A stretch of DNA of 64,000 nt, from assembly GCA_017467445.1 (NCBI GenBank), contig JAFTSG010000003.1, positions 1 through 64,000 of the forward strand, written 5' to 3'. Position numbers and translations under genes: made by a program. The notes beneath the pieces were generated by a model. The model was not told where the DNA came from. It did no database searches and saw nothing but the letters and a program-made list of their open reading frames with translations. Source of the stretch: Clostridia bacterium (GTDB taxonomy: Bacteria > Bacillota > Clostridia > RUG12999). Shown piece by piece: positions 704 to 58,041 of the stretch. Each line of letters starts with the position of its first letter. Within the stretch, counting starts at the first letter, position 1.

Positions 704-775
704 AATATACACCTCTGCTAACATTCTAGCACGAAATAAGTAAACGGAATAAGTAATATGTAAACATTTAATGAA

Positions 776-929
776 ATATCAACTTCGTTGATATGAAATA
801 ATCCGGCGGATTATGAAATATTTTTCTGAAAGAAAAATATGAAATAAAATTTGCTTTTTCATATTGTGAAGCAATATTTCATACATGTCGTGTATTTCAT
901 AGCGTAGCTATTTCACTTGCCGAAGGCAA
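776..929. repeat. Hairpin array A (seven short palindromes with oriented spacers)
   Basis: Seven perfect short hairpins: 776-794, 798-814, 818-840, 861-877, 881-895, 899-911 and 917-929. The first three are separated by TGAAAT, the last four by its reverse complement ATTTCA; a 20-base spacer divides the halves. Loops are tiny (TTC, GTA, GAA). The array ends next to the tRNA-operon terminator at 938-971. No gene is visible in the surrounding 704-937 interval. Array B at 57228-57373 has the same design with different stems. Confidence 0.85.
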
Positions 930-937
930 ATTTCATT

Positions 938-56894: not shown

Positions 56895-57167
56895 TCATTC
56901 TATGTATTTACATTCACCAGTCTTTAAATTTACTTCAAACTTAAATTCTTCTTTTGCTTTTTTTGTTTCATCAATTACTATATTACCCTCGCTATCAAAG
57001 ATAGAATCATCATTACCGTCCGACAATGAAATTGATATTTGAGCAACTGTCCCGTTTACACTCCAACAAGGATATAAGTTATTTTTGTTTTTTAAAACAT
57101 AATCTTTTCCTTTGATATCAATGAGTTTTCGCAATGCAGCCTTATGCATTTCTATTTCACTTAACAC
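56895..57167 (-). CDS. Small hypothetical protein
   Basis: 90 residues; N-terminal helix (MHKAALRKLIDIKGKDYVLKN-like) followed by beta strands (GTVAQISISLSDG, EEFKFEVNLKTGECKYIE), like a PepSY/cystatin-type fold but not assigned. It starts at GTG 57167 with AAGGAG nine bases upstream and has its own terminator. Alternatives: an accessory or immunity-type gene. It lies next to hairpin array B. Confidence 0.65.
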   Translation of the reverse strand: MLSEIEMHKAALRKLIDIKGKDYVLKNKNNLYPCWSVNGTVAQISISLSDGNDDSIFDSEGNIVIDETKKAKEEFKFEVNLKTGECKYIE

Positions 57168-57227
57168 TTTTTTCGACTCCTTAACCAGACCACTTGGTCA
57201 ATCCACCATTCTCTTCATTAAATGAAT

Positions 57228-57373
57228 TGACAGCTGCGCTGTCATGAATTGGCTGTGCCATGAATTGTTGCGGGGCAACATGAATTGAATTGCCTTTACA
57301 ATGCACGAAGTGCAATTCATTCGCCGCAAGGCGAAATTCATGAAATTGCAAATTTCAATTCATGCCGAAGGCA
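57228..57373. repeat. Hairpin array B (seven short palindromes with oriented spacers)
   Basis: Hairpins at 57228-57244, 57250-57260, 57266-57280, then 57302-57314, 57321-57334, 57342-57356 and 57363-57373. The first three are separated by TGAATT, the last four by AATTCAT; a 21-base spacer divides them. Loops include GAA twice closed by C-G, a very stable DNA hairpin type. Same 3+4 design as 776-929 with unrelated stems. No gene in 57168-57402. Confidence 0.85.
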
Positions 57374-57380
57374 ATTCATT

Positions 57381-57401
57381 GATTTCATCAAAGATGAAAT
57401 C
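57381..57401 (-). terminator. Hairpin downstream of lexA
   Basis: Perfect stem GATTTCATC/GATGAAATC with AAA loop, directly after the lexA stop; no strong T run, so termination may be weak. Confidence 0.5.
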
Positions 57402-57402
57402 C

Positions 57403-58041
57403 TTATATTACATTCGTTCGGAAAACCCCGATTACTTTTCCTTCTATTATAACATTATCGGAATAGATGGGGTCCATATAGTCGTTTTCGGGCTGGAGGC
57501 GGATTACGTTTCCTTCATTATAATAACGTTTAACGGTTGCCTCTTCATCAATTCTCGCAACAATTATTTCCCCTGCTTTGGCGGTGGACTGTTTTTTTAC
57601 AATCACATAATCGCCGTTTAAGATGCCGGCATTTATCATACTGTCGCCTTTTACTTTAAGCATAAACACTTCGCCGCCACGCGCAAAATATGCCGGGAGC
57701 GGAAACGCATCGGTTATGTTTTCTTCCGCGGTTATGGGAAGTCCTGCGGCAACACTTCCGACAACGGGCACATCAATATGCTCGGTTGAAATGTCGGGCA
57801 TATCGGCAAAAGGACTAGGCTTTTCTTCCTTTAAATTAATAGTTCTTGTTTTTTCGGCTGCCATTACAAGCCTGCCCTCTTCCTCAAGGCGTTTAATATA
57901 CCCATGAATTGTTGAGGATGAGCTGAAGCCTACAGCGCTACCTATTTCACGAACAGAGGGTGAATACCCATGTTCATTCATAAATTCTTTTATAAAATTA
58001 AGTATTTCTTCTTCTATGCCTTCACGTTTTTTTCTTGCCAC
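57403..58041 (-). CDS. lexA: LexA repressor
   Basis: 212 residues. N-terminal winged helix (ILNFIKEFMNEHGYSPSVREIGSAVGFSS), cleavage site Ala-Gly in VVGSVAAGLP near 93-102, catalytic serine in VKGDSMINAGI near 130 and lysine in EEATVKRYY near 167. It starts at GTG 58041 with AAGGAAG upstream. Divergent from the SOS-controlled LysM gene. Confidence 0.97.
   Translation of the reverse strand: MARKKREGIEEEILNFIKEFMNEHGYSPSVREIGSAVGFSSSSTIHGYIKRLEEEGRLVMAAEKTRTINLKEEKPSPFADMPDISTEHIDVPVVGSVAAGLPITAEENITDAFPLPAYFARGGEVFMLKVKGDSMINAGILNGDYVIVKKQSTAKAGEIIVARIDEEATVKRYYNEGNVIRLQPENDYMDPIYSDNVIIEGKVIGVFRTNVI

Follow-up and report, generated by a model that had tools for sequence, protein, structure and literature searches.

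A hairpin array beside lexA in a Clostridia genome is probably a solo copy of a small mobile element with an S23 partner gene

The window analysed here, a 64,000-nt stretch of a Clostridia genome, carries lexA (57403–58041, minus strand) as the host gene immediately upstream of a complete type-B hairpin array, referred to as array B or B1 (57221–57380, minus strand). Directly 5' of the array is a further hairpin, hp0 (GATTTCATC-TTT-GATGAAATC; 57381–57401, minus strand), which begins one base past the lexA stop codon (57405–57403). Array B (57221–57380) comprises one half with four ATGAATTG linkers and three hairpins, then a centre, then four hairpins each trailed by the complementary linker CAATTCAT. 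It is inverted-symmetric, that is, the linker of the second half is the reverse complement of that of the first. The ATGAATTG linkers start at 57222, 57244, 57260 and 57280, and the complementary CAATTCAT linkers at 57313, 57356 and 57372, with a one-mismatch copy at 57334. A preliminary description had reported seven hairpins in a 3+4 arrangement with spacers and a later hairpin after lexA, all of which are present; on the minus strand the four-hairpin half comes first, nearest lexA, and 3+4 is the view from the other strand. The strict centre is ~14 bases long (57288–57301) rather than the 21 originally given.

Reading from lexA, the minus strand presents hp0, ATGAATTG-hp1-ATGAATTG-hp2-ATGAATTT-hp3-ATGAATTG-hp4 and the centre, past which it continues as CAATTCAT-hp5-CAATTCAT-hp6-CAATTCAT-hp7-CAATTCAT (array 57379–57222; all features on the minus strand). 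The first linker, ATGAATTG (57372–57379), leads into hairpin 1, GCC-TTC-GGC (57364–57372), followed by hairpin 2, GAAATTTGCAATTTC (57342–57356), hairpin 3, TTCGCC-TTGC-GGCGAA (57320–57335), and hairpin 4, TGCAC-TTC-GTGCA (57302–57314); across 49 type-B copies, 96%, 97%, 97% and 98% of the respective stem cells are paired. Within the centre (57286–57301), AAGGCAATTCA (57286–57296) forms an inverted repeat (11 nt, 100%) with the first linker plus the 5' arm of hairpin 1 (57368–57378), whose reverse complement it matches exactly. Beyond it lie hairpin 5, GTTGC-CCC-GCAAC (57267–57279), at whose place two S23-bearing sister elements have a GGAGCGAAGCGAG-like sequence, hairpin 6, GGC-ACA-GCC (57251–57259; 99% paired in the 49 copies), hairpin 7, GACAGC-GCA-GCTGTC (57229–57243; 97% paired), and the last linker, CAATTCAT (57222–57229). 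The S23 ORF of S23-bearing sisters starts ~20–25 nt further on. No S23 ORF lies directly 3' of array B, and the S23 place is occupied by a 90-aa ORF (56895–57167, minus strand) that is not S23 and has no Pfam or NCBIfam match above cut-off. This ORF has its own AAGGAG ribosome-binding site and a GTG start.

Array B is much more stably folded than its dinucleotide shuffles, with z = -5.0 for 231 nt as RNA and, for the 160-nt array, z = -5.3 as DNA and -4.1 as RNA. We considered several known classes of structure for the locus. The spaced units are palindromic, their number is fixed and their orientation inverts at the centre, so array B is not a CRISPR array. A classical 23S rRNA IVS, the kind excised by RNase III, was rejected because array B sits between lexA and the 90-aa ORF and not inside an rRNA gene; an Rfam search of the 64,000-nt window at gathering cut-offs returned tRNAs only and no rRNA match. 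Gut-1 RNA (RF01706) was rejected at 19.5 bits against a gathering cut-off of 50. The hairpin after lexA is real, but hp0 is not a canonical intrinsic terminator, as AATGAATT and not a T-run comes after it on the lexA strand.

A second array in the window, array A (type A; 770–937, minus strand), has the same 4+4 layout with the linker pair ATGAAAT/ATTTCAT. It comes after a tRNA and a terminator-like hairpin (938–971), and its S23 gene (PF05635/TIGR02436; 356–700, minus strand) makes it an S23-bearing form of the element. The layout shared by the two arrays was correctly recognized in the preliminary description, whereas the lengths given there, about 146 bases for B and 154 for A, measure 158 (57222–57379) and 166 (771–936). 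We scanned all 1,048,823 bases of the assembly with no linker assumed; a hairpin-only scan was too noisy, and requiring a repeated linker together with its reverse complement fixed detection. The 1.05-Mb genome contains six arrays by this linker-blind scan, and all six have 4+4 linkers (one C1 linker is mismatched), compared with 0, 0 and 1 arrays in three order-1 shuffled genomes. The genome-wide census that had been proposed thus yielded neither random counts nor random orientations, and the original view that layout is conserved while stems differ, and that the 3+4 match is no coincidence, is borne out by these arrays and by most sister arrays. Three linker families occur in the genome, ATGAAAT (window 771, C1, C4), ATGAATTG (window 57222) and GCTAAAT (C5:40237, C14:22308), and an additional right half of the ATGAATTG family was spotted by eye at C5:92406. 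S23 genes of this genome occur only at C1, C13:392 and C14. In A2 and A3 of the source genome, as in L163, L145, L141, L186 and others, a second-half hairpin carries the motif GAGCNAAGCGA with tandem G.A mismatches in the stem, which could be a kink or a protein site.

Searching 85,000 species genomes with a 19-base centre pattern gave 60 type-B matches in 59 stretches, about 57 of which are arrays. The carriers are nearly all gut Clostridia MAGs, mostly from the ruminant gut, with several arrays per MAG and four or more in several MAGs. Parsed type-B arrays are nearly fixed in length (157–163 bp), and B1 is 84–87% identical to the others (median 84%, maximum 87%). They occur at sites with differing flanks, beside unrelated genes. 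The S23 motif is missing within 480 nt in 36 of 50 copies, B1 among them, with remnants in some; at G086:C83 and G060:C48 the array lies directly 5' of S23. Because two genomes with several type-B arrays yielded no S23 gene in their assemblies, S23 may be dispensable for array persistence or may be missing from the drafts.

Of 50 type-B copies, 37 have a hairpin ending at the array's left edge, compared with 17 of 1000 random control positions (1.7%), and only three have one at the right edge. At array B the left-edge hairpin is hp0. These hairpins may be terminators after a tRNA or tmRNA gene, or palindromes after a -10-like sequence, which stands just ahead of the hairpin in 32 of 50 copies, and the left-edge hairpin may be the target or part of the element. 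A conserved tail resembling TTGGCATCTAAATCGTTCACTGATT..TATAATGA is present to the right of many solo type-B arrays (L299, L303, L304, L312, L326, L334, L339, L351); it is sometimes repeated or runs into another palindrome or array, and it also occurs between two tandem arrays in L184.

Stem covariation is strong. In type-D arrays (n=14), pairing is kept in 97% of stem cells, and doubly changed cells number 85, compared with 29 in shuffles; sliding the partners cuts pairing to 25–44%. The type-B arrays (n=49) have 51 doubly changed stem cells against 6.6 in shuffles (maximum 12), with conservation of 93% in stem columns and 96% in linkers. Ladder pairing from linker to linker gave no covariation within one family, because linkers are invariant there, and pairing of the centre with hairpin 1 gave a weak signal, with one pair only changed on both sides (type D). 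Some whole hairpins differ in position from copy to copy. The active stem-rewriting mechanism suggested in the preliminary description is not supported by these data and is not needed to explain them: stems change by compensatory substitution within a family, and on the aligned copies their change reads as selection of the usual kind for pairing, plus some exchange of cassettes. Arrays A and B do differ in sequence, as first reported, yet each aligns with its own family (B at 84–87% with dozens of type-B arrays). Because of this, and because the stems change by ordinary compensation, we regard A and B as two old lineages of one element.

PF05635 genes were found in 34 of 99 relatives, and TIGR02436 genes, at a stricter limit, in 92 of 391 genomes of the class, compared with 0 of 14 control genomes. 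Other families of the class commonly have S23 genes, often several per genome, and an array is often immediately upstream. About a dozen linker families occur among S23-linked arrays, the second-half linker being the reverse complement of the first. About 26–28 of 34 parsed arrays have at least four linkers, or nearly so, in both halves (4+4 in 14, 5+4 in 12, 5+5 in 2). Where present, the fifth linker is a degenerate copy at the centre, and most arrays short of 4+4 carry a linker mutation or are close to the detection limit. In well-formed hairpins, TTC loops occur in first halves only (23) and GAA loops in second halves only (15), and the array inversion therefore covers loops as well as linkers. 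In place of arrays, some S23 genes have hairpin-free sets of short words in direct and inverted orientation.

Linker type was mapped onto a tree of 75 S23 proteins, 48 of which have an assigned hairpin-array linker type (13 types); the test depends on these types, which were assigned by hand from the sequences. The mapping takes 14 changes (the minimum possible is 12), compared with a mean of 32 and a minimum of 27 in 200 shuffles. At the level of sequence, this demonstrates that linker family follows S23 phylogeny. In a search of open-licence PMC literature we found no description of S23 with hairpin arrays. Structures of the S23 family have been solved without an assigned function, e.g. 2RLD, and the family protein of Xanthomonas is a pentamer (PMC4990558).

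S23 genes were also observed in other settings. At L136, L140, L141 and L143 (G080, G050, G094 and G086) the S23 element lies exactly at the 3' end of what seems to be one and the same gene, with a conserved C-terminus HVE..V.LL and the element at a dyad in the coding end; this gene is probably a 23S rRNA uracil methyltransferase. Viral or phage-labelled contigs (L184, an IMG/VR contig, and L186, MT835590) carry S23 and an array, L184 with two arrays in tandem. On plasmids of Planktothrix, Monoglobus and Nostoc (L185, L187, L188), S23 either lies next to transposase genes or is contained in DISARM-like and type I restriction operons, and the Planktothrix and Nostoc genes are flanked by short repeated words, e.g. 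GATTTACGATT or GCGACTT. G222:C1 (L220–L223) has four S23 copies in stretches at least 99.9% identical over ~3.3 kb, in apparent 23S rRNA gene sequence, and these copies read as putative classical IVS within the same class.

Several observations bear on mobility. Type-D S23 proteins of the source genome are 96–97% identical to those of G094 and G068, which belong to other families, whereas the LexA proteins of the same pairs are 46–48% identical. Near-identical S23 beside divergent LexA indicates horizontal spread, and the comparison points to probable transfer of the linker and S23 unit across bacterial families. At one site, G119 has the element and S23, and its congener G068 lacks both, with flanks that are 85–87% identical; the intergenic stretch is variable between the two, and exact junctions are not given. 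A different insert occupies this site in G224:C2 (L297, ~1590–2140); the inverted repeat GCTCCCTTGTGTAAAGGGAGC/GCTCCCTTTACACAAGGGAGC lies on either side of it, and it may be another mobile unit bordered by hairpins. In G219 there are at least ten matches to the type-D array, the majority of them without S23, and their outer flanks differ. Many of these copies have in common inverted ends of 10 bp (TAAATTATTG/CAATAATTTA) as well as a direct repeat of 12 bp that surrounds the array, and such ends are not present at other copies. No target-site duplications beyond chance were found at S23-bearing copies, and a search for clean empty sites in a phage collection and cyanobacterial plasmids found S23 present and no clean empty site. 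Among ten carriers examined for Y1 and RVT_1, some form of Y1 transposase match is present in seven, with G219, G094 and G358 lacking any, and one has a reverse transcriptase (RVT_1), so neither is a consistent companion of the element; nor is any other transposase or any recombinase. Mobility of the element is well supported by these comparisons. At array B itself we found no evidence of present mobility; an empty lexA site was sought in close relatives, among which the same-genus assembly lacks a full-length lexA match and identity in the others reaches only ~55%.

Comparison of the copies demonstrates the 4+4 layout, covarying stems, constant linkers in step with S23 phylogeny, spread across families, dispersed and solo copies, placement after hairpins, and one site at which congeners differ in having the element. 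Array B itself is probably a solo copy, without S23, of a small mobile element whose complete form ends in an S23 gene. From 5' to 3', the complete element would consist of the left-edge hairpin (in many cases a terminator that follows a tRNA or tmRNA gene, or else a palindrome close to a promoter), four linker-hairpin units, the centre, the three-hairpin inverted array, and a gene for the S23/IVP four-helix bundle. S23 is a four-helix-bundle protein for which we know of no catalytic activity, and for that reason we infer its role. The array might act as a single-stranded nucleic acid (RNA or ssDNA), in which complementary linkers could pair into a ladder of four-way junctions, and an S23 oligomer might recognize the linkers and loops, such recognition being a cis module that would serve spread. 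Array B would have lost S23, or never had it, and may now be silent or a leader between lexA and the unrelated 90-aa ORF. More tentatively, S23 and its matched linker/hairpin ladder might form a self-spreading unit that targets hairpins by a route without a known transposase, recombinase or reverse transcriptase, with the rRNA IVS and Gut-1 RNA as special cases; we regard this wider proposal as possible and somewhat doubtful.

The strong stem covariation and the -10-like sequence before the left-edge hairpin in 32 of 50 type-B copies would also suit a structured RNA with a host or cis-regulatory role, a Gut-1-like leader or small RNA that descends vertically with occasional transfer and regulates S23. 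Gut-1, a certain RNA according to its authors (PMC2864571), corresponds to hairpins 1–3 of those GTGAAAT-type arrays that lie ahead of S23. We nevertheless consider this unlikely, as most type-B copies lack S23 and lie beside unrelated genes, some genomes have few copies and others ten or more, and the linker families keep to S23 clades across bacterial families, which is what a transferred unit would show. An origin at the locus itself, as an intrinsic terminator or mRNA-stability cluster after lexA, is hardly credible: array B does follow lexA directly and folds strongly, and several sister copies come after tRNA genes, but the lexA-proximal hairpin has no T-run, and closely similar arrays at unrelated sites in other genomes, the type-B family, refute a local origin. 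A local side effect of array B on lexA transcripts is possible.

Type B has more solo than S23-bearing copies, and this, together with the inverted ends and direct repeats in G219, could instead indicate passive MITE- or REPIN-like miniature repeats moved by an unrelated hairpin-acting transposase, with S23 as a passenger; REPINs are likewise inverted, hairpin-forming and non-autonomous (PMC3116915). No Y1 transposase or reverse transcriptase is common to the carriers, however, the G219 ends are missing from other copies, and a passenger would not be expected to show so tight a match of S23 clade to linker family, all of which make passive repeats quite unlikely. An S23-less copy of an S23-linked element remains our preferred account of array B.

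The S23-linked element resembles several described systems. The IVS of 23S rRNA in Coxiella burnetii and Leptospira have an S23/IVP protein of the same family (PF05635/TIGR02436); they have been called parasitic or selfish and occupy the loops of rRNA hairpins, and in the Coxiella IVS the S23 ORF is immediately preceded by tandem heptamer repeats (PMC4990558). The present elements differ in lying outside rRNA genes and in their fixed 4+3 hairpin array, two inverted linker sets and dispersed S23-less copies. Gut-1 was described from human gut metagenomes as a certain, free-standing noncoding RNA of unknown function (PMC2864571). Its model spans the three leading hairpins of one array type together with their GUGAAAU linkers, less than half of an array, and Gut-1 matches above cut-off (L137 and L126 pass) lie in S23-linked arrays or loci. 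REPIN/RAYT systems likewise consist of short, intergenic, non-autonomous pairs of inverted palindromic repeats tied to one protein family (PMC3116915), but several array carriers lack Y1, the linked protein is the S23 bundle, and each unit has eight linkers and seven hairpins. Avd of diversity-generating retroelements is a PF05635-fold homologue by published structure comparison (PMC10053308), whereas nine of the ten array carriers tested have no reverse transcriptase. The intergenic heptamer sets of Beggiatoaceae and cyanobacteria (TAACTGA) are also short direct repeats between genes, suspected to be mobile (PMC4679880), and cyanobacterial S23 genes in our set have comparable short flanking words; these repeats have no hairpins between them, and S23 goes unmentioned in that work.

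The S23-linked element gives array B, an otherwise unexplained repeat, a family and a partner protein, and it presents the orphan Rfam family Gut-1 as part of a larger element. It also places the S23/IVP gene of 23S rRNA IVS in a broad class of hairpin-associated elements. The function of S23 becomes testable, as the matched linker-protein pairs in about a dozen linker families allow cross-recognition experiments.
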